Shown in pieces: positions 22,684 to 55,183 of a stretch of DNA of 64,000 nucleotides (positions are counted from its first letter, which is position 1; every line of letters begins with the position of its first letter). This DNA is from an uncultured Prevotellaceae bacterium. Its GTDB lineage: Bacteria; Bacteroidota; Bacteroidia; Bacteroidales; Muribaculaceae. The position numbers were made by a program, and so were the translations under genes. Where the stretch lies: assembly GCA_900322135.1 (NCBI GenBank), contig ONYP01000006.1:1-64000 (forward strand). The letters run 5' to 3'. The notes beneath the pieces are model-generated. The model was not told the origin of the DNA. It did not search any database and saw only the letters and a program-made list of their open reading frames with translations.

Positions 22684-22737
22684 AATTGTCGAAAAATTGT
22701 CGGAAACAGCGATTTTGTTTCCTAAAAATTGTCGAAA
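22684..22737 (+). repeat. Three aattgtcg(a/g)aa direct repeats before the integrase gene
   Basis: Copies at 22684-22694, 22695-22705 and 22727-22737. Spacings of 11 and 32 bp place them on the same face of the helix, as expected for protein-binding sites such as integrase arm sites or operators. Confidence 0.5.
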
Positions 22738-22762
22738 ATTATGTTTCACTCAACATTATAAA

Positions 22763-22774
22763 AAGTCAAACATT
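22763..22774 (+). repeat. AAGTCAAACATT motif, copy 1 (integrase leader)
   Basis: The 12-base phage motif directly abuts the ATG of the integrase. See the finding on six copies. Confidence 0.6.
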
Positions 22775-23953
22775 ATGCCTACACTATCATTGACGGTACT
22801 CCCCGCCAAAGCACTCAAAGGGGGGAAAAACAAGGTGCGCATCGCAGTCGCACACAACTCACAGACAAGATACATCGTCACCGATGTGGTTATCGACTCG
22901 CCCAGGGAATGGAAAAACGGGCAGATCGTCAAGCGCGATGATGCTGCCTACCTCAACACGAAGCTCAGGACGAAGCTCAACGAGGTGCAGCACGCCATCG
23001 ATGAGGTGCCCTACCCCGAGTGCCTGTCATGCGCTGAACTCATAGAGGCATCCGCCAGGGCGCACGCAGCCGTGTCGCACACGCTGCGCTCGGCATTCGA
23101 GGAAATGATGTCGGTGAGCACCGCAAAGCAGTCCTCCATCGACTTGTACCGCTCCAACTTCCGCTCCATATCTCGCTTCCTGTCGCCCGACATGCCCGTG
23201 TCGCAGTTCACGCCGCTGGTCGCACGAAAGTATATCAAGCAGCGCAACGACCTCGCCCATGCGACGATCCAGGAACATGTCACGCTGCTGTCACGCATCA
23301 TGAAGCACTGTCAACAGAACGGATACACCGACTTCCGATTCAATCCAGTAACCGGGTGCCTCAAGTACTCCCCATCGGTGCGGCAGTCATGGCTCACCCC
23401 CGACCAGGTGAGGACGGTAAGGGACTTCCCCTTCCGCTACAAGAGATCCCTGAAGTTCCGTGACCTGTTCATGCTATCCTACTACCTCGGCGGCATGAAC
23501 ATCGTGGACATGATTAAGATTGATTTCCGTGGCTCGCACCTCAAGTACAAGCGCACCAAGACGGAACGGGCGCAGAAGGTCAACCCGTTCGTCGAGTTCG
23601 ATATTCCTGATGAGGCCCGCCCAATCATCGAAAAGTACATCCAGCCCGACGGCAAGCTGAAGATATTCGGCAAAGTCGGCTACAAGAGCTGGTTCATGAG
23701 CGCGATGGGCATGGTCGCACGCGACGAGGTGGGACTGCCGCAGATGACATACTACTCTGCCCGCAAATCGTTCGCCCAGCACGCCTTCCAACTGGGCATC
23801 AGCGAGAGCGTCATCGACTACATCCTGGGGCACTCGCTCAACTCGGGCAGGGCATCGACAATCTACGCCTACATCAAGGTGACCCCAGCAATGGCCACAG
23901 CAGCAATACGGAAAGTTGCCGACTTTATAGCGACAAATGAGAATTTTGATTAA
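22775..23953 (+). CDS. int: Prophage tyrosine integrase
   Basis: 392-residue site-specific recombinase that inserts and excises the prophage. An N-terminal arm-binding domain (about 1-80, with TDVVIDSPREWKNG), a SAM-like core-binding domain (about 95-200) and the catalytic domain (about 210-385) are visible. Catalytic motifs are SAR in YYSARKSF (R330), GHS (H353) and a tyrosine in TIYAYIK (Y364 or Y366). The first catalytic arginine is replaced: YYLGGMN has glycine (G239) where most integrases have R, a feature shared with the IntDOT group of Bacteroides elements. The ATG at 22775 is preferred because family members begin with such a short start. The gene points into the prophage. Confidence 0.9.
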   Translation: MPTLSLTVLPAKALKGGKNKVRIAVAHNSQTRYIVTDVVIDSPREWKNGQIVKRDDAAYLNTKLRTKLNEVQHAIDEVPYPECLSCAELIEASARAHAAVSHTLRSAFEEMMSVSTAKQSSIDLYRSNFRSISRFLSPDMPVSQFTPLVARKYIKQRNDLAHATIQEHVTLLSRIMKHCQQNGYTDFRFNPVTGCLKYSPSVRQSWLTPDQVRTVRDFPFRYKRSLKFRDLFMLSYYLGGMNIVDMIKIDFRGSHLKYKRTKTERAQKVNPFVEFDIPDEARPIIEKYIQPDGKLKIFGKVGYKSWFMSAMGMVARDEVGLPQMTYYSARKSFAQHAFQLGISESVIDYILGHSLNSGRASTIYAYIKVTPAMATAAIRKVADFIATNENFD

Positions 23954-26233: not shown

Positions 26234-27094
26234 ATGGCTTACATCAACGAAATCGCGGTCACATACCGCTTACACCTCGCACGATTACCGAAACGGAGCA
26301 CCCGAACCGACTACTCCAAACGCCTCTCCATGCTTGAGCAGTGGTGCTCCATGCACGGCATCACCCGTGTGGAGGAAATTGATTTCCTTCAGTTCCTGGA
26401 CTGGGTATTCTATGACAGGGGCGTTTCGCCGAGGACTCGGAACAATTACCGCACCTGGTGCCGCTCGTTCTGCTCGTGGCTGAGGCTCTCACCAAACCCG
26501 ATGGACGACATCAAACCGATGAAGGAACCGGCAAAGATTAGGCAGCCGTTATCAGCCACCATGCTCAGGAGCATTAAAGAGTACCTGGTGCTCCATGACA
26601 AACACTTCCTTCTGGCCGTGATGATGGAATACTACTGCTTCATCCGCCCTGAGGAACTGAGACATCTGCAGGTGGGTGACATCGATGTGAAGCGACATGC
26701 CATCCATGTGCGTGCCTCGATCAGCAAGAACGGCAAGGCCGAGATGGTCGGACTTAACAATGGGATTGTGTCGCTGATGAGAGAACTTGGCATACTCAGG
26801 GCTCCCAAGGACTGGTATTTGTTTTCCAATCGGTTGCACCCTGGGAAGGTCAGGCTCGACAGCCGAGCCTTCCGTGACCGCTGGGCGCGGTTGCGAAAGC
26901 GATTGGGCATTCCCAGTGAATACCAGTTCTACAGCCTCAAGGACTCAGGCATCCGTGACCTGGCCAATAGTGCCGGAATCGTGATAGCGAGAGACCAGGC
27001 CCGCCACAGCAGCATAGCAGTAACCAACAAATACCTGCAAGGCCGTGACCGTCCAGTGCACACTGAAACGGTTCGATTCAAGGGCGCGTTATAG
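26234..27094 (+). CDS. Tyrosine recombinase next to the fibre switch (putative DNA invertase)
   Basis: 286-residue recombinase. An N-terminal SAM-like core-binding domain (about 5-90) precedes the catalytic domain with R138 in FIRPEELRHL, a K236 in YSLKDSG where many family members have R, H258 in ARHSSIAVT and the nucleophile Y267 in NKYLQG. It lacks an arm-binding domain, as expected for a Xer/invertase-type enzyme rather than a phage integrase. The ATG at 26234 is chosen because of the -7 box just before it. The TAG at 27092-27094 ends one base before the 20-bp repeat 27096-27115. This context strongly suggests that it inverts the fibre segment. Confidence 0.88.
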   Translation: MAYINEIAVTYRLHLARLPKRSTRTDYSKRLSMLEQWCSMHGITRVEEIDFLQFLDWVFYDRGVSPRTRNNYRTWCRSFCSWLRLSPNPMDDIKPMKEPAKIRQPLSATMLRSIKEYLVLHDKHFLLAVMMEYYCFIRPEELRHLQVGDIDVKRHAIHVRASISKNGKAEMVGLNNGIVSLMRELGILRAPKDWYLFSNRLHPGKVRLDSRAFRDRWARLRKRLGIPSEYQFYSLKDSGIRDLANSAGIVIARDQARHSSIAVTNKYLQGRDRPVHTETVRFKGAL

Positions 27095-27095
27095 C

Positions 27096-27115
27096 GTGGA
27101 GAGGGCGACGCTCTC
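27096..27115 (+). repeat. Fibre inversion site L (20-bp inverted repeat)
   Basis: gtggagagggcgacgctctc, identical to the complement of 31925-31944. The core has GAGAG/CTCTC arms around a 7-base centre, a layout seen at tyrosine-recombinase crossover sites. Weaker similarity continues to the right for about 24 bp. Confidence 0.85.
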
Positions 27116-27124
27116 TCCGCAGAA

Positions 27125-29248
27125 ATGGGCAAGCAGCTGGGCGACTCTGCCAAGGTGGGTATGTACTTCGGTGCTCCCAGCGGGGAAACACCCGATACGC
27201 CCGCAGAACCCGCAGATGTAGACCTTACCTTTGATGATGGTGATATCGTTAGTGGCGTGCGAATTGTATCTTCTTGGGGTGGTGTTTCACAGGTCTCAAC
27301 AAATACACAAAGAGCCACAGTGAACAAGGTCTACTATTGCGGTGAGGGAGATGCGCCGAGCGGCACAGAAAAATTCGACCTATCGAGGCTCAAGTCATTC
27401 ACTTCACCAAGTGGATTCAACGCCTCACCGACATTCGCGGCATCATTAGAGCAAAATGCTGCTGCAGTATACCCTACTGGATGGCAAAGTGGAACATACA
27501 CATTTACCGATGCGAACCGCACCGCAGCCGAGGGAAAACCTTACATGGTTTGGAACTTTACCAAAGGAAGCGGTAGTGATACCATTGGTAGCAGCGACAT
27601 TGCGGCACTCGTAGCAGGTTTCAAAATCACTCTTGAGGGGGAAGAGGTTGAACCCGTGCAACCTGCATTTGTCCAGCACAAGGCTGTGTCGGTGGTTGAC
27701 GAGAACGGCGACGAGGTGCTCGCCATGAGTTCCCCTGCCGCAACCGAGGGCGGTGAGACCGAGGTCTACAGCAAGGATGCCGTCGATGCCTTGCTTGGCT
27801 CATTCGCGCCCGAAAGCGAGGACATCAACTACCGTCTGCCTAAGGCCGGCGTAGAGGCTGACGATGTGGAGGAGTTGATGCTTTCTTCGTCAGAAATCGT
27901 CAGTGGTGTGCGTGTCCCCGCTAATGGCGGCATCGGTAATATTTCGAGCAACACCCAAAGGGCGACCGTTAGCAAGATTTTCTACATCGGCTCTGGTGAA
28001 ACGCCAGCCAATATGCGTCGGTTCGACATCTCCAACTGGAAAAAAATCTCTTTCCCTGCCGGATACTACGGCGGTTGCACTGTTGCCAAAACTCTTTCGC
28101 AGACTTACAACACATCTGACTACAATGTGTTCATCAACTGGACCACTGGAGATGTCGATATCACATCGACGATTCTTGCCGCCATCGATGGCTACGACTA
28201 CATGGTAGTCAACTTCGCAAAAGGTAGCAGCCAGAACCAAACCATCGACAGCACCGATATCGCGACCATCGCAGCTGGCTTCAAGATGCGTAGTGAGATT
28301 GCCGCTTCCGATCCTGCCGATGCTGCCATAAACATTGTGGATGAAGAGGGCGAACCTGTCAAGCGGATTTACAATGGCGGCGACCGCGACACTGTTGAAA
28401 TCTACTCAAAGGCTGCTGTCGACGGGCTTCTTTCCAATGTAACTCCCAATCCGTTCGATTCAAGCAAGGCGAGAAGAAATCTTCGTGTGGCGCATTGGAA
28501 TGTTGGGCATTTCTATCTTGGTCGTAATATGGCCGATGGCAATTTTATTTTCCGCACCGATGGGGAGAATTTGCAAAAGGCGTTCACCAACAAGGTGCGG
28601 CAGATTGGCGCAGATGTGTTCATGATGTGCGAGTGGTACACTTGCACACAGTCTGAGGCCATATTCGGCGATTTCCCGTATAGTGACACATCCGTCGATT
28701 CGGGCGACAATAGGGAATACGCCTTTAAGTCCAATTTCAAACTAAATTCGGTCGAAATAGTCAACTTCGGGCTGCAGAGCCCTCACGACGATGAAACCTT
28801 CAAGGTTGCCGAGATTTCAATGGGCAATAGGACGATTGCCTTGATAGAATGTCACCTGTACTATGGCGGCAATTATAGTGCAGACAAAACATATAGGGCT
28901 GCTGAAATTCAGGCAATTCTCGACTATGTGTCCACACAAGGGTATGACAGGGTCATCATTGCGGGCGATTTCAACAACGGGAAACCCAATGACACGCTCG
29001 ACGAAGGCCCGCATGAGTTAGACGCGTTCAAGAATGCTGGCTACCAAATGTTCAATTTCGACCTTTACGAAAGGGTCAACACATATCCTGCAACCGGATT
29101 GACCGACTCTAACTACACAAGCGGCAAGCCTTCGATCGCCATTGACAACATCCTGTGCAAGGGTTGCAGTATCGTTGCTGCAAATGTTGTGGACGACGGA
29201 AGACTGACCGACCACTGCTGCGTAGTGTGTGACATTGTGTTGGACTAA
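27125..29248 (+). CDS. Silent alternative tail-fibre C-terminus (B) with EEP phosphatase domain
   Basis: Read from the ATG at 27125 it has 707 residues, but coding continues upstream in frame through the repeat (codons for GEGDALSAE from 27098) to the recombinase stop, so the ATG is not a natural start. Two related ~130-residue modules (EIVSGVRV...NTQRATVSKIFY near 40-150 and 255-400) with fibre-type linkers (VYSKDAVDALLGS, IYSKAAVDGLLSN) precede an endonuclease/exonuclease/phosphatase domain from about residue 450: HWNVGHF, ECHLYYGG, AGDFNNG (D615, N617), AIDNIL and LTDHC. It should be made only after inversion, giving a fibre of about 1103 residues. Confidence 0.82.
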   Translation: MGKQLGDSAKVGMYFGAPSGETPDTPAEPADVDLTFDDGDIVSGVRIVSSWGGVSQVSTNTQRATVNKVYYCGEGDAPSGTEKFDLSRLKSFTSPSGFNASPTFAASLEQNAAAVYPTGWQSGTYTFTDANRTAAEGKPYMVWNFTKGSGSDTIGSSDIAALVAGFKITLEGEEVEPVQPAFVQHKAVSVVDENGDEVLAMSSPAATEGGETEVYSKDAVDALLGSFAPESEDINYRLPKAGVEADDVEELMLSSSEIVSGVRVPANGGIGNISSNTQRATVSKIFYIGSGETPANMRRFDISNWKKISFPAGYYGGCTVAKTLSQTYNTSDYNVFINWTTGDVDITSTILAAIDGYDYMVVNFAKGSSQNQTIDSTDIATIAAGFKMRSEIAASDPADAAINIVDEEGEPVKRIYNGGDRDTVEIYSKAAVDGLLSNVTPNPFDSSKARRNLRVAHWNVGHFYLGRNMADGNFIFRTDGENLQKAFTNKVRQIGADVFMMCEWYTCTQSEAIFGDFPYSDTSVDSGDNREYAFKSNFKLNSVEIVNFGLQSPHDDETFKVAEISMGNRTIALIECHLYYGGNYSADKTYRAAEIQAILDYVSTQGYDRVIIAGDFNNGKPNDTLDEGPHELDAFKNAGYQMFNFDLYERVNTYPATGLTDSNYTSGKPSIAIDNILCKGCSIVAANVVDDGRLTDHCCVVCDIVLD

Positions 29249-30594
29249 GTCTCTCTCACAAACGGGAAAGTGATAGTGTCTCTAACCCTGCCGTTAGCCG
29301 TGTTCTGTGCGCCAATGCGGTCAATAGTAATCTCCCGATTGGCGAAGTCCAATGTCACTTCGTTGATACGGTAGGTGTAGGTGTTCGACGGCCTCGGCCA
29401 AGGACTGTCAGCGCCGCCAAGGTCGTCCTGTGTGGAGTATGCGGCAGACGAACTCGCTGCTGTGATATCGAGCATCAGCTGTCCGCTCCAGTCCTCGCCA
29501 TTCTCTACATCTTCTGAATTGCTCTCGTCAGGCAGATAGTAATGAACATCCGTATGAAGATGTCCACACAGGTAGCACAAGAAAGTCGCAGGCCGCTTAG
29601 TCGAGAAGTCCTCGTCAATCGCCACATCGGCAGTGCCAGCATAGCCGTTGGAGTTGTAGTTGTTGTATTCATACTCCATGTGTTCTTGGTGCTGCCATGC
29701 CCTAACGATGCGAGGAATCAGCGACAACTGCGGTTCGTCTGCTACCGTAGAGTCAACATCGAAGCGGTTGCACATCCACGATATGTGTTGGCTGACGAAC
29801 AGTTTTTCAGGTTCAGGTGTTGAACTTGGACGCATGGCGACGATTTCGTCATCCGCTTTCGTGCGGCTCTGCACAGGCGGCTCGTGCATCATGATGATGA
29901 CGAAGTCGTTGCTGGATAACTCTTTCAACCTTGCGCATAGCCAGTCTATCTGAGACTGTGAGTACATCGTGCGGTAGTTGCCGTCGTAGCGAACCTTTGA
30001 AATCTCATACTGGTCAAGGCTGATGATGCGCAGTTTGCTGCGGCGGCTCAAGACGATGTCCTTGTAGAAGTATGCCGATGAGCCTACGGTGTCACCCCAC
30101 ACGATGCTTTCATCAGTGACATAGGTCTTAATAAAACTGAGGATGGATGCTTGACCGCCGTAGTCGTAGGTGTCGTGGTTTCCAGGGCAGATGAGCAGTT
30201 TATCGCCGTAACCTGCAAGGTAGTTCTTGAACTCGTTGCTTACGCCTTGGCGAACCATGTCTCCCGTGAGGGCAACGAACTCGATATCCTCATCCTCATT
30301 GAGCATCGTGTCCACTTGAGCCAGCGCATCGGTGTAGTTGTGCGGGTCGCTGATGTGCAGGAACTTCACGACCGCATCGAGGTCTTCATCCTCCATGCCA
30401 TCGAGACCGTCAAGCACGGCTGCACACCATTCGCTGCAGCTCTGCGTTTCGTCGAGCAGGTCATCGCCGAAAACATCGTTGAGCGTGGCACTCGCCGAGC
30501 CGCCCGACTCGTTGGATAACTCCTCCGAGCCGAGAGCCTCGTTGATGTAATCGACAACATCCTCGCCGTAATATGTGTTATCGAGGTCTGCCAT
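29245..30594 (-). CDS. Calcineurin-like metallophosphoesterase, tail-associated
   Basis: 449 residues. After ~75 acidic residues of unknown type comes a metallophosphoesterase domain: HISDPH (D83, H85), TGDM (111-112), CPGNHD (138-141), IMMHEPP and, near residue 335, the final metal motif CGHLHTD. It would cleave phosphate esters, possibly in a surface polymer or a lipid. It starts 1 bp after the fibre stop and so is co-transcribed with fibre A; it converges by 4 bp with end B. It lies inside the inverting segment, so it should be off in the B state. Confidence 0.87.
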   Translation of the reverse strand: MADLDNTYYGEDVVDYINEALGSEELSNESGGSASATLNDVFGDDLLDETQSCSEWCAAVLDGLDGMEDEDLDAVVKFLHISDPHNYTDALAQVDTMLNEDEDIEFVALTGDMVRQGVSNEFKNYLAGYGDKLLICPGNHDTYDYGGQASILSFIKTYVTDESIVWGDTVGSSAYFYKDIVLSRRSKLRIISLDQYEISKVRYDGNYRTMYSQSQIDWLCARLKELSSNDFVIIMMHEPPVQSRTKADDEIVAMRPSSTPEPEKLFVSQHISWMCNRFDVDSTVADEPQLSLIPRIVRAWQHQEHMEYEYNNYNSNGYAGTADVAIDEDFSTKRPATFLCYLCGHLHTDVHYYLPDESNSEDVENGEDWSGQLMLDITAASSSAAYSTQDDLGGADSPWPRPSNTYTYRINEVTLDFANREITIDRIGAQNTANGRVRDTITFPFVRET

Positions 30595-30595
30595 A

Positions 30596-33103
30596 TCAGC
30601 TTGCCGTTATCGTAACAACCAAATCACCAGTCACTGATGCGATTTCAATCCTCTTGTTGGTTTTCCATTCAGCCTGTGAAATGTCCACGCCGTCCATCGT
30701 CACGGTTACCGACTGCAATGTCTTGCCCGAATCGACGCTGAAACCGCAATAGAAATTATCACCGTCGAACACTTTCGGCTTGGCACTCTCTTGCGAGAAT
30801 GTGACACCTGTAAGGTTGTATGTGATGTTGTGAGCAGGCAAGGTGTCTAAGATGCTGATGTTGTTCACATCGAACAGGGCAGTGCCGCCTGCGGTAATGC
30901 CGCACCCGCTTTCAAGAGAACTTGAACTTGCTAACTTAAACCCTGCTCTTGCATAAGCGGGGAGATTGCCCGAACCAATATGACCAATAAGAGTGCTGCG
31001 GGCGGACGAGTTCAATGTGCGGCTCGTTCCGTTACTCGGACCATAGTATAATGCCATGTTCTTATCAGTATTCCACCCGAATATCAGTTGCTTGTTCTTG
31101 TTATAGAACAAGATGACATTAGTCGAGCCGTTAGATATGATTGGGTCGCCGAATTTATGCGTCCAAACTATATCAGCATCAAGATTTCCCAACCTGATGA
31201 GTTCGGAACAACATACATCATTTTGCGAGACGGGAGAACCAGCCAAGTTGAGGCTGTATCCGCTGTAAAACTTCATCACCTTCGTCGCCTTCGCCGTGAT
31301 GACAAGCACACTCGGCATATTAGCCACGGTGATGGTGTTCCCGCTCGTCGTGTAGGTCACATCGTTGTCGCTGCCGTCTTTAACACTCTCTATGGTGAAG
31401 CCGTCGAAGTAATCGTCTTCGATGGCAATAGTGCCGACGAATGTTCCGCCCACAGCAGCAGCCGCGCCCGTCATCGACAAAGCATCAGCATCGTTGGAGC
31501 AGACGAACGACGGGGTAACCAGCGCAGCAGCAGTGCCAGTAATAGTCAACGACATCGTTGTGTCAACCTTGACACTGACGGTGAATGTGCCGTTGCCGTT
31601 GTCTACCACCGTTGCACCCGTAGCCGCAGCCGTAGCAATGCCGTAGCCTGTCTCGCCCTCGACGAGCAGGTTTACGGTAGTGCCTTGGTCAACCTGTATC
31701 GAACCACTCACCACATTGCCGTTGTACTTGACCACACCATGCGTGATGCTGTTCGTGACGGTGAGAACCACCTTGGGGATACTCCAGTCAATCGGCGTGG
31801 GTTCTGCATCCTCTTGGTCTTGCGCAGTCCAAAATGCGATGTTGCCCAACTTGGCATAAAGCCTCTCCAAACTCGCCTGCACCACATCGATGTTTGCTTT
31901 CAGTTTCATTCCCATTGCTGCGCTGAGAGCGTCGCCCTCTCCACCGTCAATGAGGTTGTTGACGATTTCAAAGGTGTCGCCGTCAACGACGGAGTTGCCC
32001 TTCGGGCCCTGAGCCTTCACGCCAGTGTCGGTCTCACCGACATACCAGTTGCCGTTCTGCCCTACCGTGATGTTTGACAACAGCGTTTGCAAGGCAGTAT
32101 AGATACCGCCCGACTTCACGGGATTGTTACTTCCAGAGGTCGGGGCATTGTCGAATGTCAGCGTGCTCTGCTTGCCAGCAATCTTTTCGTCAAGCACCTT
32201 GCCCTGCTTAGCCGACAGGGCCTTCGTGCCGTCAGTCGAGTTGAGGTTGTCGACCACATCGACCGATGACCCGCCCTGGATCTCGAGATTGACAACTCCA
32301 TTGGTGGGAGTCTGCGTCTCGCCGTTGTTGACCTTGATGCCGGAGACCTTGGCGGCAAGGGCAGCGACGAGGCCGCTGATGTCGCTCTGGCCAATGGTGA
32401 TGTTCTGCGACAAGGCCTTGCCGTTGACGGTACGGGTGATGGGCACATAGTTCGAGGCGTCGAAATTGACAGGCACGGAAACGACCTCGTCACCCTGCTC
32501 GGTATCGAAAGTGAACACAAGGTAGCCGTTCTCGTACTTCACATCCTTGACGATGGAGCCGCCACCGCCACCTCCGGGATTGACAATCAGCCGCCATGCG
32601 GTCTGCGACCCTGTCCACTCATACATCTTGCCCGTGCGCTTGTTCACATACAGCACACCCTGCGAGACAACATAATGGTCCCAACCTGTCGCCTTCTTCT
32701 CATGAAGCTGATAGCCAGTTGAGTCAAGGCCGTCATATACGATGTCACCAGTCTGCGGCGTGTAGTCGTCATCGCCGTCATAGTACTCGCCCATAGAGGA
32801 CAGCAGCACGATGGGTGACTGCCGCCAATACAGCTTGTCCAGCTCTGTACCGGGCAGGTTGGCTGCGTTACCCTTCAGGGACGCCATCAGGTTGATGATG
32901 TTGGTCATGGCGTTATTGAAAGTCGCCGTCTTCAGGTACCCGTAGAGAAGTGTCGCATATGACACCTTACGGCCTCCGTCAAGCTCAAGGTAATCGCTGT
33001 CAGACATCTGGGCGACCGCCGTGAGCTGCTCAATGGTCTTGCTGTTCGTTGCGAGCGCTTGAAGCACCGCAGCGACAATTTCTTGAAGTTCCTCGTTCGT
33101 CAT
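30596..33103 (-). CDS. Tail fibre, expressed form A
   Basis: 835 residues. The N-terminal part (1-387) stays constant and includes a small coat region, a glycine hinge (NPGGGGGGSIV), and two copies of the neck motif ALSAxxG (TKALSAKQGKVLDEK and GDALSAAMGMKLK). The 20-bp site lies at the second copy. The variable part A (388-835) has Ig-like beta repeats (VTVTNSITHG..., TFTVSVKVDT, MSLTITG), and a C-terminal beta-rich head ending VTGDLVVTITAS. Such fibres bind the host surface. It is behind the baseplate genes by 2 bp. Confidence 0.85.
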   Translation of the reverse strand: MTNEELQEIVAAVLQALATNSKTIEQLTAVAQMSDSDYLELDGGRKVSYATLLYGYLKTATFNNAMTNIINLMASLKGNAANLPGTELDKLYWRQSPIVLLSSMGEYYDGDDDYTPQTGDIVYDGLDSTGYQLHEKKATGWDHYVVSQGVLYVNKRTGKMYEWTGSQTAWRLIVNPGGGGGGSIVKDVKYENGYLVFTFDTEQGDEVVSVPVNFDASNYVPITRTVNGKALSQNITIGQSDISGLVAALAAKVSGIKVNNGETQTPTNGVVNLEIQGGSSVDVVDNLNSTDGTKALSAKQGKVLDEKIAGKQSTLTFDNAPTSGSNNPVKSGGIYTALQTLLSNITVGQNGNWYVGETDTGVKAQGPKGNSVVDGDTFEIVNNLIDGGEGDALSAAMGMKLKANIDVVQASLERLYAKLGNIAFWTAQDQEDAEPTPIDWSIPKVVLTVTNSITHGVVKYNGNVVSGSIQVDQGTTVNLLVEGETGYGIATAAATGATVVDNGNGTFTVSVKVDTTMSLTITGTAAALVTPSFVCSNDADALSMTGAAAAVGGTFVGTIAIEDDYFDGFTIESVKDGSDNDVTYTTSGNTITVANMPSVLVITAKATKVMKFYSGYSLNLAGSPVSQNDVCCSELIRLGNLDADIVWTHKFGDPIISNGSTNVILFYNKNKQLIFGWNTDKNMALYYGPSNGTSRTLNSSARSTLIGHIGSGNLPAYARAGFKLASSSSLESGCGITAGGTALFDVNNISILDTLPAHNITYNLTGVTFSQESAKPKVFDGDNFYCGFSVDSGKTLQSVTVTMDGVDISQAEWKTNKRIEIASVTGDLVVTITAS
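31925..31944 (-). repeat. Fibre inversion site R (20-bp inverted repeat)
   Basis: Complement of site L, inside the fibre gene at codons 387-393, where it encodes GEGDALS. The reading frame is the same as at site L, so crossover keeps the frame in either orientation. Confidence 0.85.
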
Positions 33104-33105
33104 AT

Positions 33106-33954
33106 TTAATCGATTTTGCGGTTGATATGTTCATTATTGTCGACATAGTCCCTGTAATATGTGCTGCCGAGCCGGCGCAGCGCAAGCTGGTTCAGCGCAG
33201 CGATTTCTGGATCGAGAACCGTGGCCGGGCGCAAGGTCTGCGTGAACACGAAACTGTCAAGCCCGTCAACAAGGATGGCCAGCGACGGGGTCTCGCTGTC
33301 GCTGCGCACATAACGGTGTCCATCGATGTACACATAGGAACAGGTCAGCAGACGATTCAGGTGCTCACCGTACCATACAGGCACACCCTCGGGACCTCCC
33401 ATCGTGAAGGCTTTCGTCACATAGTCCATGGCGAACAGCTCCACCACATCTTCATGCTGCGTGACGAACTGCTCGTTGCTCACGCCGAACTGCCAGCCGC
33501 TGTCCTTGAAGCCGCCAGGAACGCGCCAGTCGAAGAAGTAAGGCATGAAGTCGATAACCGACACCACATCGTCACGCTGGCGGTTGTCCTTGAAGCGGTA
33601 CTGGATGAGCGTGGTGCGGGCAAGCAGCTGCGCGTCATCGGTGATGATGAACTCATCGCTGTCGATGCCGCCGACATTAAGGATGTAATGACCGGGTGAC
33701 AGGCCCTGCAGCGTAAGGAAGAAGCATTTCTTCCCAGAATTCATGTCCCACTCGTTCCAGGCTATCGGGCAGATGACAGTGCCGTTGTGCGGATTCTTGA
33801 GTTCCGCATCCTCAAGCGTGTCGCTGGCATCAGCGAACACTTGGACCATGATATGGTCGGAGGATGCGAACATCTGCACATAACGGCTCGGCAGACCGTC
33901 ACTGACGATGCCGTCATCGAAATGCAATGGAACAAACGGACTAATCTTTATCAT
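33106..33954 (-). CDS. Baseplate / distal tail protein
   Basis: 282 residues, unknown fold, placed between the large baseplate protein and the fibre. The start MIKISPFVPLHFDDG and repeated beta-type text (GHYILNVGGIDSDEFIITDD) resemble structural tail-tip proteins of Bacteroidales siphophages. It overlaps the upstream gene by 4 bp (ATGA). The role is inferred from position: probably an adaptor between tail tip and fibre. Confidence 0.6.
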   Translation of the reverse strand: MIKISPFVPLHFDDGIVSDGLPSRYVQMFASSDHIMVQVFADASDTLEDAELKNPHNGTVICPIAWNEWDMNSGKKCFFLTLQGLSPGHYILNVGGIDSDEFIITDDAQLLARTTLIQYRFKDNRQRDDVVSVIDFMPYFFDWRVPGGFKDSGWQFGVSNEQFVTQHEDVVELFAMDYVTKAFTMGGPEGVPVWYGEHLNRLLTCSYVYIDGHRYVRSDSETPSLAILVDGLDSFVFTQTLRPATVLDPEIAALNQLALRRLGSTYYRDYVDNNEHINRKID

Positions 33955-36047
33955 AGTGCTATTATTTCTTTTACGATGAGTGTGTAATCGAACCCGTTCT
34001 CTCGACCGAAGCGAGCCTTTACCTCGCCGATGAAGCCCGTGTAGCGGTAACCCTGGTAGTCCAGCTGCACCAGTCCGTCGAGGACGGCGGGCTCATTCAT
34101 GTCGTCGGTGGTGAACTCCAGTTCACCGGCACTGAACAATGCCGTGCCAGCGGCGATGTCGATGTCCTCCAGCCCGTTGTTGCCGTCACTCGATGTCATG
34201 CTGAGCGTCACGGCCTTGCCGTTGCCCATGGCGGCGATGAGTCCCGCATTGTTGGCGATGCACACCGCAGGGGCATAAGCATCGTTCTTGGACGCTTCAT
34301 ACTTGATCGTGCCGCTGTCCATCTCGGCGCACAGGAAGAAAACATCCTCATCACTCTTGTCGTCCTTCGTCTCGTTCTCCTTCTCGCCCTTGCGGATGGT
34401 GAACTCGATGCCGTAGGAGTCGGCACGATACCTGCTGATGAGCGACAATTTCCTGTCGGTGGCACTGTATCCCGTGGAGTAGTAGTTGGTAAAGTTCGTC
34501 TCCAGGCGTCCGTTGATCTCGCCGTACTCCTTCTTGGAATATCCGGCGCTGACCTCGGAATAGATGATGCCGTCATTGACGCTATACTTCACATCGCGGA
34601 AACGCTCTATCTCCTTGACGGACGATGTGTCGAACACATCGGAGCGGTGCACGAACTGCACCTCGTTTCCTACAATGCGGTAGGTATAACCGAACACAGC
34701 CTCCATCCATTCGGCGAACTGCTGGAATGTGGTGAACACCTTCGGCGCGGGAATGTTGCGCAACACCTCGGCTGGCGAGATATATGTCTTTGCCAGCAGC
34801 CCGGCATCGTCATCAGCGATGGTCGCTGTTGAACCAGGAGAGATGCTGTCCACGATGCGTTGCAGCAGCTCTGTTGGATTGATGCAACCCAAAATGAGCG
34901 TCGACTCGGCAGGGTCGGTCCATGTCATCGTCAGCGTGCCGCTTGTTATCAGCATGGAGTTGTCGAGCTGCAGCATCGGGTACTCGTTGGTGCCGAGGGC
35001 GTTCATCGTGGAATACGCCGACACAAGGATGTACTTGTTGTAGTTTGCCGGTGCGCCCTTCGACACCCATGTCGTGCCGTTGTACTCGTAGACGGTGTTG
35101 CCCGTCCAGTACGACGCATTGGGATAGGCATTGCTGCCAACGATGCCGAAGTAGCCTGGGTACAGGCCGATGATGTCGGTGCGAGCGGCGGCAGCAGCCT
35201 TCAGCGCATCCAGCGTCGCATAGTTGGCATGGGTACTCTTGCCAATCCACTTGTTGCGGACACTGCCATAGCGAAACTCCTTCGTGATGTCATTGTCGCA
35301 CAGGTTCGACCACAGCTGGTAATGAGGGTTGGAGTCGTCAACCCAATAGCCCAGCTGAAGCGTCGCCACGGCGTTGTTCCTGACCGCTGCAAGGTTGTAG
35401 TTCACATAACCCTCAAAGGCTATGCGGATGAGCGGTGACGGAGCGGTCTTAATCGAGGCAAAGAAGCGGTTGATGCTCGTGCCGTCATAGCCGGTGCTCT
35501 CGTTGGCGGGCTCAATATATGCGGTAGAGATGACGATTGAGTTTGCGTCATCCATTCGGACATCGACATCTCCCGCAGAATTGGATGCCTTCGGCAGCTT
35601 GTACTTCTGCGAGTTGGCGAAGGCCATGCGGCCCATCTCCACATTGGTGAGGCTGAACTCACTCACGGGGAACTGGTACTTCTGGCTCTTCTTTGACTTG
35701 AGCAGCGCAGCCAGCGTGTTGTCGATGGCGTTGATGGTCAGTTTGCCCTGCTCGTTCTCAAGGCTTGAGAAGTCCAGGGGAGCCTCGAACTGCTTCTCCC
35801 ACTCATGGGTGTTGGTGATGGTGTGCACAGCGACACTCGCAGTTGCGTTGAAGCCGTTGGCGAGATAGTGCTCCCACAGCAGGTCGCGGATGATGCCCAC
35901 AAAGACGAACTGCGTGGAGTACGAACGCATCACACCCGAGTAGTCCGTGCGCTTCAACGAGAACGAAATCTCGTCCCAGTTCGCAAGGCACTCATCTGGA
36001 ACGGCGTATACGGATGAGCCTATCGTTATGGTGTACTTCGTGAGCAT
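33951..36047 (-). CDS. Large baseplate / tail-tip protein
   Basis: 698 residues. The N-terminal ~110 residues (SLKRTDYSGVMRSYSTQFVFVG) resemble a dit-like or hub region, and the C-terminal third (HRSDVFDTSSVKEIERFRDV, SAGYSKKEYGE) looks like the tail-spike hub region of siphophage tail-tip proteins. It probably builds the tail-tip ring after the tape measure. The promoter at 36055-36062 lies exactly 7 nt before its ATG, so the mRNA may have no leader. Confidence 0.65.
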   Translation of the reverse strand: MLTKYTITIGSSVYAVPDECLANWDEISFSLKRTDYSGVMRSYSTQFVFVGIIRDLLWEHYLANGFNATASVAVHTITNTHEWEKQFEAPLDFSSLENEQGKLTINAIDNTLAALLKSKKSQKYQFPVSEFSLTNVEMGRMAFANSQKYKLPKASNSAGDVDVRMDDANSIVISTAYIEPANESTGYDGTSINRFFASIKTAPSPLIRIAFEGYVNYNLAAVRNNAVATLQLGYWVDDSNPHYQLWSNLCDNDITKEFRYGSVRNKWIGKSTHANYATLDALKAAAAARTDIIGLYPGYFGIVGSNAYPNASYWTGNTVYEYNGTTWVSKGAPANYNKYILVSAYSTMNALGTNEYPMLQLDNSMLITSGTLTMTWTDPAESTLILGCINPTELLQRIVDSISPGSTATIADDDAGLLAKTYISPAEVLRNIPAPKVFTTFQQFAEWMEAVFGYTYRIVGNEVQFVHRSDVFDTSSVKEIERFRDVKYSVNDGIIYSEVSAGYSKKEYGEINGRLETNFTNYYSTGYSATDRKLSLISRYRADSYGIEFTIRKGEKENETKDDKSDEDVFFLCAEMDSGTIKYEASKNDAYAPAVCIANNAGLIAAMGNGKAVTLSMTSSDGNNGLEDIDIAAGTALFSAGELEFTTDDMNEPAVLDGLVQLDYQGYRYTGFIGEVKARFGRENGFDYTLIVKEIIAL

Positions 36048-52977: not shown

Positions 52978-53733
52978 TCACTTCGCGAAAGTCGAGGCAA
53001 GACCTTGCCTGATGTCGCGATAGTGCAAAGGTACGGAATAAATCCCCTCGTCCACCGATTGGGCGAAATTGTCGAGGGGTCGCAACCCGTCCGTATAGCT
53101 CAGGTTGAGGTCTCGGTACTTGGCGACCTCGTCGCAGAACTCACGCACAGTGTTGCTTTGGGGGTTGCGCACATTCACCAGTTGGCGGTTGCAGCCGTAG
53201 GCATAGAGCAGGGCCTCTGCTGCATCCCCGATGTAGGTGAAGTGGCGCACATTACGCCCGCCGTTGTAGATGGTGCACGGACCGTGGAGCAGGTTGTAAA
53301 GCAGAGTTCCTTGTCGTGGCTCCCGGCCATACACATTGTGCAGGCGCACCCCGGTCGCAGACGGGCAGTAGGCTTTCGCGAACTGCTCGTCGAAACGCTT
53401 GCTCATCCCGTACATCGAGGTGGTGTTGCACGCGTTGGCGGTGCTGCTGGACGCATAGACCAGCTTCACGCCGTGCCTGTGGCAGGCAGTGGCCACCGCC
53501 ATGAACGCGTGGATGTTCTCACGCTCGATGTCGTCGAGGCGGTCGTTGAACACGCTCGTCTCGGCGGCGAGATGAAACACCGCATCAATGTCGCCCTGGG
53601 CCAGCAGCGGCTCTATGCGGACGGCATCGCCTCCAGTCTTCGTGTCGATGCGGATGACATCGAAGAGGCCGTTAAGTCGGGTGCAGAGGAACTTCCCGAT
53701 GAAGCCCTCGCTCCCAGTGATGATCGCTTTCAA
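52978..53733 (-). CDS. NAD-dependent epimerase/dehydratase (sugar-nucleotide type)
   Basis: 251-residue extended short-chain dehydrogenase. NAD-binding GSEGFIGKFL (7-16), HLAAETSVF, active-site YGMSK (Tyr and Lys, near 130) and LHNVYGREPR. It probably changes a nucleotide sugar; the phage could use it for a glycan on DNA or virion or for altering the host surface. Behind the MgsA-C-like gene by 29 bp. Confidence 0.88.
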   Translation of the reverse strand: MKAIITGSEGFIGKFLCTRLNGLFDVIRIDTKTGGDAVRIEPLLAQGDIDAVFHLAAETSVFNDRLDDIERENIHAFMAVATACHRHGVKLVYASSSTANACNTTSMYGMSKRFDEQFAKAYCPSATGVRLHNVYGREPRQGTLLYNLLHGPCTIYNGGRNVRHFTYIGDAAEALLYAYGCNRQLVNVRNPQSNTVREFCDEVAKYRDLNLSYTDGLRPLDNFAQSVDEGIYSVPLHYRDIRQGLASTFAK

Positions 53734-54427: not shown

Positions 54428-55183
54428 TCAGAATGGAAAACTCGCACTGATATTGTACTGCACCATCGACTTCGTCTTGTCTCGGCCGTTGTTGCCCTGG
54501 CCCTTCAAGCGGATGGTCTCGCCGAAATATTTCCTCATCAGGAGGATGCTGCGGCGTTCCTCGTCCACATTGCGGATGGCCGACAGGCCTCCGGCGTTCA
54601 CGAAGGTGTCCTTCTGTTCGAAGTTGTAGCGCAGGTCGGTGAGGACTTTCCGCTCGGTGTACTTCATGTAGCACGAGATCCAGAAGTCCTCCTTCAGGCG
54701 CAGTTCCTCGTTCCACCAGGTGTTCTTGTTGTAGCGCACACCGTAGGAGCAGCCCGTCACCATCTTGTCGAGGCTGAGGTACTCGGTCTCGGGATACATG
54801 ACAGGACTCACTCGGGAGGTGAAGCCGAACAGGTGGACATCAAGCAGGCACGCCAGCTCGTACAGCTCGTTGATGATGCGGGTTATCTCGCCCTTGTCGT
54901 TGATGCGTGCCGTCTCTCCCTTCTCGGTGTAGAGCCGCTTGCACGCGTCCACATCGTCATCGAGCATGAACAGGTTGCGGAAATGCTTCGCCATCCAGTT
55001 CCGCTTCGGGATGAGGCCCACGATGTCATCCGGGTGGGTCACTATCTCGCAGTCGGGGTTGAACTCCCGATAGATGTCGCCCTGGGACTTCGCCACGCAG
55101 ATGATGGGATCGTTCACCAGGTACTTGGCAAACACCCTGTCGTGGCGCTTGTGCGAGGGTATCACGATGCGCAGCCCGCTCAT
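54428..55183 (-). CDS. GT-A-like glycosyltransferase
   Basis: 251 residues: IVIPSHKRHDRVF at the start, LFMLDDDVDACKRL (the DxD-type metal motif) and WWNEELRLKEDFWISCYMKY. These are features of the small GT-A enzymes found in phages, some of which add sugars to modified DNA bases (TAGT group); protein or virion glycosylation is equally possible. It overlaps the ParB-like gene by 4 bp (ATGA), so the two probably act together. Confidence 0.78.
   Translation of the reverse strand: MSGLRIVIPSHKRHDRVFAKYLVNDPIICVAKSQGDIYREFNPDCEIVTHPDDIVGLIPKRNWMAKHFRNLFMLDDDVDACKRLYTEKGETARINDKGEITRIINELYELACLLDVHLFGFTSRVSPVMYPETEYLSLDKMVTGCSYGVRYNKNTWWNEELRLKEDFWISCYMKYTERKVLTDLRYNFEQKDTFVNAGGLSAIRNVDEERRSILLMRKYFGETIRLKGQGNNGRDKTKSMVQYNISASFPF

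Follow-up and report, generated by a model that had tools for sequence, protein, structure and literature searches.

Organization of the fibre locus

The window analysed here is a stretch of 64,000 nucleotides from an uncultured Prevotellaceae bacterium (contig ONYP01000006.1, positions 1 to 64,000), and it contains a prophage together with host flank in a Prevotella-like genome. In the prophage, a gene for a tyrosine recombinase is followed by a 4.85-kb segment that reaches into the tail-fibre gene (Table 1). The segment is bounded by an exact 20-mer, which is present in opposite orientations at the two ends. We consider it very probable (roughly 0.9) that the locus is a tail-fibre switch, in which this dedicated recombinase inverts the segment between the two identical 20-bp sites.

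Table 1. Features of the fibre locus and its neighbours (window positions)
Feature	Position	Strand	Profile match
Tyrosine recombinase, predicted invertase; 286 aa from ATG 26234, 301 aa from TTG 26189	26234..27094	+	PF00589 1.6e-15
Site 1, exact 20-bp inverted repeat, one base past the recombinase stop; weaker similarity to 27139	27096..27115	+	
Tail B, silent 716-codon fibre C-terminus, Exo_endo_phos-like end	27098..29248	+	PF03372 7.4e-4, below cut-off
Metallophosphoesterase-like gene, 449 aa, behind tail A within the segment	29245..30594	-	PF00149 2.2e-12
Tail A, the C-terminus of the fibre as now oriented, 448 aa	30596..31942	-	
Site 2, the opposite exact 20-bp repeat, within the fibre gene	31925..31944	-	
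Constant fibre N-terminus, 387 aa (whole fibre gene 30596-33103)	31943..33103	-	Phage_fiber_rpt PF22337 3e-15
Two tail-region genes upstream of the fibre gene (33106-33954, 33951-36047)	33106..36047	-	phrog_26568, phrog_22157, phrog_15220 (virion structural protein)
Second tyrosine recombinase, probable prophage integrase; context, outside the switch	22697..23953	+	phrog_1 integrase 3.9e-25

The exact 20-mer and its inverted copy inside the fibre gene, on which a preliminary description of this DNA was built, are confirmed. The 20-mer has only these two places in the window, even with three mismatches allowed, and it was matched in 0 of 100 shuffles. The expectation from composition is 0.0016 exact inverted 20-mer pairs per 64 kb, and a chance repeat is rejected on these two grounds. 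The similarity between the two copies reaches 44 nucleotides, at 84%. One more place with three mismatches is found in the bacterium's own genome; it is taken as chance, because a reversed control pattern equally gave one. Translation bears out the shared reading frame: GEGDALS is read in frame in the fibre-side copy (...NNLIDGGEGDALSAAMGMKL) and in the recombinase-side copy (RGEGDALSAEMGKQL). The inverted sites therefore bound alternative C-termini that are in frame with the constant N-terminus, the arrangement of a fibre switch by inversion.

The two halves of the segment are arranged tail to tail, with the end of tail B meeting that of the opposing last gene. Side A consists of the last 448 residues of the fibre and the separate gene with the Metallophos domain, which the preliminary description did not mention. 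Its lengths of 448 residues (form A) and 716 residues (form B) are both right. The frame of tail B is open over its full length, for which the probability by chance is about 5e-14, given the stop density of the two other plus-strand frames. It starts one codon past a stop codon, as described earlier; this is the stop of the recombinase, in the same frame. The claim that it has no start of its own needs a correction, as there is an ATG at 27125 (707-aa frame), with no clear ribosome site before it; a proper start is lacking.

The assignments of folds to the cassettes are based on Pfam and on conserved residues. In tail B and six aligned relatives, Trp467, Asn468, His586, Asp624, Asn626, Asp705 and His706 are invariant (7/7), and we take these positions to be catalytic. 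The database itself annotates PF03372 in relatives P0007, P0008, P0009 and P0021. The end of tail B is predicted to be a phosphodiesterase-type enzyme. A search of solved structures gave no match for tail B or for the phosphoesterase-like protein, and among 101 genomes of the genus tail B was found in its own genome only.

The recombinase scores 57.7 bits against PF00589, well above the cut-off of 27.1, which places it among the tyrosine recombinases. A serine invertase of the Gin, Cin or Min type is rejected on the same basis, as the gene next to the site belongs to PF00589. Residues Arg138, Lys165, Lys236, Arg241, His258 and Tyr267 are invariant in the eight aligned members of its clade (see below), and they presumably constitute the catalytic set of a tyrosine recombinase (R-K-H/K-R-H/W-Y). 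The position of Lys236 is occupied by histidine in many relatives. XerA is the only solved structure matched by the profile at 1e-4 (4.8e-5).

Related loci and their cassettes

The survey of relatives comprised 103 distinct recombinases, ten of which (at 69% identity or more) are referred to here as the clade, with 93 others. A quick tree of 56 rows places all ten clade members on one side of a branch, with SH-aLRT support of 98; the tree is only indicative because of its very long branches (L181 and L130). The stop-to-stop frames of the clade span 293-330 residues in the eight rows that are neither truncated nor cut, and those of the other relatives 383-559 residues in 92 of 94. The clade enzymes are about 100 residues shorter than their relatives, and a Pfam scan matched no arm domain. 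A protein search of phage records returned 40 records, all below 60% identity; the best, a longer relative with 39% identity, is annotated as an integrase and lies near the end of Porphyromonas gingivalis prophage records. The same search of plasmids returned two records, at 26% and 25%. The switch enzyme would accordingly be an armless offshoot of phage integrases. The clade is present in 4 of the 101 genomes of the genus (E ≤ 1e-100), the window's own genome included, and the same four carry it among 397 genomes drawn from the family (E ≤ 1e-95). IMG/VR adds the members L024 to L027.

The arrangement of recombinase and site is conserved in the clade. A coding site of the form E-x-x-A-L-S/T-A-E-M/Q-G is located at the recombinase stop, or within about 10 bases of it, in eight of the ten rows. 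In the ninth (L083) the contig end cuts inside the site, which still reads ..GEGSALT, and the tenth (L181) has a truncated recombinase without a site. None of the 93 other recombinases has the coding site behind its stop. An inverted arm is found inside the fibre gene in five of the ten clade rows, and these are all the rows with both ends on the contig (paired-arm scores 26.5, 35, 25, 35 and 32); four clade contigs end inside the segment. For the non-clade recombinases, 92 of the 93 could be scored; the best arm score is 15.5, and an inverted pair is present in 0 of 92. Moreover, DNA similarity between related loci ends at the site. The adjacency of gene and site and their co-conservation suggest that the recombinase acts on these sites. 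The earlier assignment of a tyrosine recombinase as the switch enzyme is thus supported, both by the PF00589 gene that ends one base before the first repeat and by the conserved layout.

Several variations are observed among the related loci. In L024, L025, L027, L065 and L066 the TGA stop of the recombinase is part of its own site. In L026 (684-8765), another frame of 801 residues begins with a third site, which has the same direction as the copy in the fibre gene, and the locus is likely a three-site shufflon. In the flank covered for four tail-region relatives (L185, L186, L188 and L189), nothing matches the switch recombinase. Two of them, L185 and L186 (10855-16965), have frames of 1800 residues behind the fibre position.

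Within the site, eight variable bases are located between GAG and CTC. Strand exchange by tyrosine recombinases needs like spacers. Within loci, the spacers are identical in seven of eight pairs, and the eighth (L026, with its middle site excluded from the count) shows one mismatch. Between loci, they are identical in 4 of 128 pairs, all of them between this window and one prophage of RUG412, a metagenome-assembled genome of the same genus. Without the two pairs of RUG412, which were chosen partly by their site, five of six within-locus spacers are identical.

The cassettes on the two sides were scanned with Pfam for seven sets, with the two prophages of RUG412 counted as one (Table 2). The enzyme family differs between the sides in five of the seven. 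Both sides are above Pfam's cut-off only in L066, L027 and RUG412 (S11 and GDSL); the BNR (7.5e-5), esterase (8.1e-4) and PF03372 matches are below it. The exchange had been described as a switch of receptors. This appears narrower than the data, as judged from sequence, since the exchanged parts would usually carry different enzyme-like domains or genes, and the chemistry of the fibre tip may therefore change besides its binding.

Table 2. Enzyme-like families on the two sides of each cassette set
Set	One side	Other side
This window	Metallophos (separate gene)	Exo_endo_phos-like
L066	GH16	GDSL
L027	Peptidase M14	GDSL
L024	GDSL (separate frame)	BNR-like
RUG412	Esterase-like or peptidase S11 (separate frames)	GDSL
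L025	GDSL	GDSL
L026	LRR_5	LRR_5

Two protein searches, which listed at least 110 proteins, show that the tails are also found in other combinations. Among the matches listed, similarity to the constant N-terminus extends at least as far as residue 380 in 19 of 110. Of these 19, thirteen continue with a window-like junction of the LSA type and six do not; the thirteen include P0012, which is form A of this phage with one residue different. Three of the 19 have a tail-A-like end and one (P0025, 31%) has a weakly tail-B-like end. Tail-B-like ends occur on at least seven proteins among the matches listed. In P0007 (934 aa, 56%) a different N-terminus is joined to such an end at GGEGDALSAEMGK, and P0021 combines a constant part that is 58% alike with an end that is 27% alike to the enzyme end of tail B. 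Homologous fibre N-termini are followed by other tails immediately after the same junction, and ends resembling tail A or tail B are also found on other N-termini.

Signs of both orientations and competing explanations

The comparison of related prophages for the opposite orientation, proposed in the preliminary description, was successful in part. It gave assembly signs in RUG412 and in G140, a second metagenome-assembled genome of the same genus, and none from L024 and L025. Both orientations are likely recorded in the assemblies of these two relatives, rather than in that of the prophage in the window.

In G140, a 22-bp repeat follows the recombinase, and contig C66 stops at its last base. 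The first 22 bases of contig C30 are the reverse complement of this repeat and are part of a fibre-type frame (...VNDLKTGGEGSALT). A single orientation should assemble through so short a repeat, while a mixture would stop exactly there. The segment's own contig was not found in the G140 bin.

In RUG412, the ends of contigs C70 and C29 are identical over exactly 99 bases, beyond which the two are about 86% alike; C66 and C65 likewise share exactly 99 bases, followed by about 90%. These ends look like shared nodes of an assembly graph. The recombinase contig C70 and the fibre contig C29 each break off within the 3' part of a GDSL-type gene, where the changes are mostly at third codon positions (12, 5 and 56 changes). 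The recombinase contig C66 and the fibre contig C65 each break off within the 5' part of one tail type, in which they are 59% alike. The four ends would be the two ends of one cassette, Y. The 20-base sites pair C70 with C65 (one mismatch) and C66 with C29 (none), in which case Y would be on the fibre side in one sister prophage and on the recombinase side in the other. The crosswise pairing, with both ends of like sequence in one prophage (C70-C29 and C66-C65), has four and three mismatches and would need extra cassettes; it is the less probable of the two.

Several observations weigh against a working switch. For this prophage itself, we infer the inversion from sequence. The pairing of the RUG412 contigs is based on the 20-base site, and the longer arm score gives C70 an equal fit to C65 and C29 (27.0 each). 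The piece that joins the halves of Y is missing from the RUG412 assembly. The partner cassettes there, X1 and X2, have tails with 38% similarity and second genes that are unrelated to each other, and over the first 222 residues of Y's tail on C65 the similarity of X1 to it is 61%; cassette replacement or conversion has therefore happened too. The same cassettes in opposite orientation were sought in L024 and L025 and not found: the recombinase DNA of the two is 91% alike and the cassettes are entirely different, so that neither shows the flipped form of the other. Among the matches listed, there is no full-length switched protein of this phage, and tail B is on record as a separate frame of 567 residues, given as on 8 contigs. 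The missing protein either argues against frequent switching in the sampled populations, or reflects that assemblers keep one majority form. In addition, a search of IMG/VR gave no match to tail A or tail B, a DNA search of phage records with the region gave no match, and the PF03372 match of tail B falls short of Pfam's cut-off.

Some of these observations would fit an exchange hotspot, in which tails are replaced between phages at a conserved fibre motif and the stored second tail rarely or never flips. The unlike cassettes of L024 and L025, the differences between X1 and X2 and the lack of a switched protein among the matches listed are all in its favour. Exchange alone, however, fails to predict the identical spacers within loci, a dedicated recombinase that is always beside the site, open cassettes placed tail to tail, or the stop of the two G140 contigs beside the segment at one and the same base of the repeat, and we regard this explanation as improbable.

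A relic, in which an ancestral switch worked and the recombinase here is now inactive or unexpressed with form A fixed, is less probable still. Tail B is known only as a separate frame on contigs among the matches listed. A related prophage in RUG548 (L054/L184, G040:C29) lacks the site and has only one fibre and a truncated recombinase; it looks like a locked derivative, and locking therefore does occur. In this window, however, the recombinase and the silent frame of 716 codons are intact and the 20-bp sites are identical, features that should have decayed in a switch dead for long. It is hardly credible that the repeat is unrelated or the assembly in error: the genome assembly is fragmented and 82.6% complete, but the shuffles gave no match, and the same layout with other sequences in independent genomes and viral contigs refutes it. 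A diversity-generating retroelement, for which no search was made, would not fit the difference between the tails, which is a block swap and not point variation.

Proposed switch and its relation to known systems

The host-type genes of the window, for example that for histidyl-tRNA synthetase, are located on its left side. The prophage carries the integrase-type gene of Table 1, an endolysin-type gene and a minus-strand series that includes terminase, portal, protease, capsid and tape-measure-like genes. The fibre gene and the gene behind it are the downstream end of this series, and the minus-strand late genes, the fibre gene among them, would form one operon. Elsewhere in the prophage, matches to nucleotide-sugar epimerase and beta-glucosyl-HMC-alpha-glucosyltransferase families are found at 52978-53733 and 54428-55183; these genes possibly have roles in the modification of DNA or of surface sugars. 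The sequence TTGTCGAAAA is present three times on the plus strand (22686, 22729 and 26224), with no further copy on either strand of the window. Its copies flank the beginning of the integrase-type gene and directly precede the ATG of the switch recombinase, and it may be a promoter or operator element shared by the two recombinases.

In the proposed switch, the recombinase would invert the segment and thereby join the constant N-terminus of 387 residues either to tail A, with the metallophosphoesterase-like gene behind it, or to tail B. The crossover would take place in the 8-nt spacer between the short dyad arms (GAG...CTC). The cassette on the fibre side would be expressed at the end of the late operon, and the other would be silent. 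A population would then hold both forms, which would differ in the binding and cleavage of the host surface.

The Rci shufflon of plasmid R64 also has a tyrosine recombinase, which swaps the C-termini of a pilus adhesin. That system differs in its location on a plasmid, its pilus adhesin and its several cassettes; among the loci here, the three-site L026 comes closest to it. The systems below are compared as described in the cited papers. Fibre switching by a tyrosine invertase is already known from the Rin shufflon of bifidophages (Mavrich et al. 2018, PMC6109161). As in Rin, a prophage-encoded and, here, presumably armless tyrosine recombinase is located beside a receptor-binding or fibre gene, with a constant N-terminus, exchangeable C-termini and a site within the gene; the inversions of Rin were seen by comparison of prophages (PMC6109161). 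Rin belongs to another host phylum and has 11-bp sites (TTCCCTAACCC) and several C-termini of 95-100 residues (PMC6109161). In comparison, the system here has a dyad-like site in the E-x-x-A-L-S/T-A-E-M/Q-G motif, longer than the 11-bp rix and unlike it by reading, and usually two cassettes of hundreds of residues with enzyme-like domains, in place of multiple short ones. It is set apart from Rin by these descriptions.

An invertible segment with two states of the fibre and a neighbouring invertase gene is also known from Gin of Mu and Cin of P1 (PMC6109161), which are serine recombinases, unlike the tyrosine recombinase here. In the Bacteroidales, C3 phages of Bacteroides uniformis show an inversion of 2 kb within a putative tail-fibre gene, and their hosts were unchanged when spot-tested (Hedzet et al. 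2022, PMC9727126). The likeness is one of description; the word recombinase is absent from the text of that paper. The B. fragilis phage ATCC 51477-B1 has a rearranged, polymorphic tail gene (PMC2535602). A literature search, with most subscription papers outside its reach, found neither this clade nor any fibre inversion that swaps enzymes described. Inversion-based fibre switching by a tyrosine recombinase is already known, and this variant, in its clade, site and cassettes, is new.

A broader possibility, which we hold only tentatively, is a phase-variable enzyme toolkit with open cassette capture, in which resident tails are flipped and tails are also exchanged between co-resident phages. 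The codons of a recurrent fibre motif spell out the crossover site, and for this reason the recombinase would be able to do both. If it is true, the exchange would be integron-like, and one lineage would cycle esterases, peptidases, glycosidases and phosphoesterases at its fibres.

If the proposed switch is correct, it would be a tyrosine-recombinase fibre switch of Bacteroidales phages of the Prevotella type, for which the invertase clade, the site and the set of cassettes are named, and it would operate in communities where the surfaces of the hosts are phase-variable too. Unlike in Mu, P1 and Rin as described, the two states usually carry different enzyme-like families, so that the phage could change cutting as well as binding. 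It would also allow a test of whether a dedicated site-specific recombinase, with its site in a coding motif, drives the modularity of phage tails.
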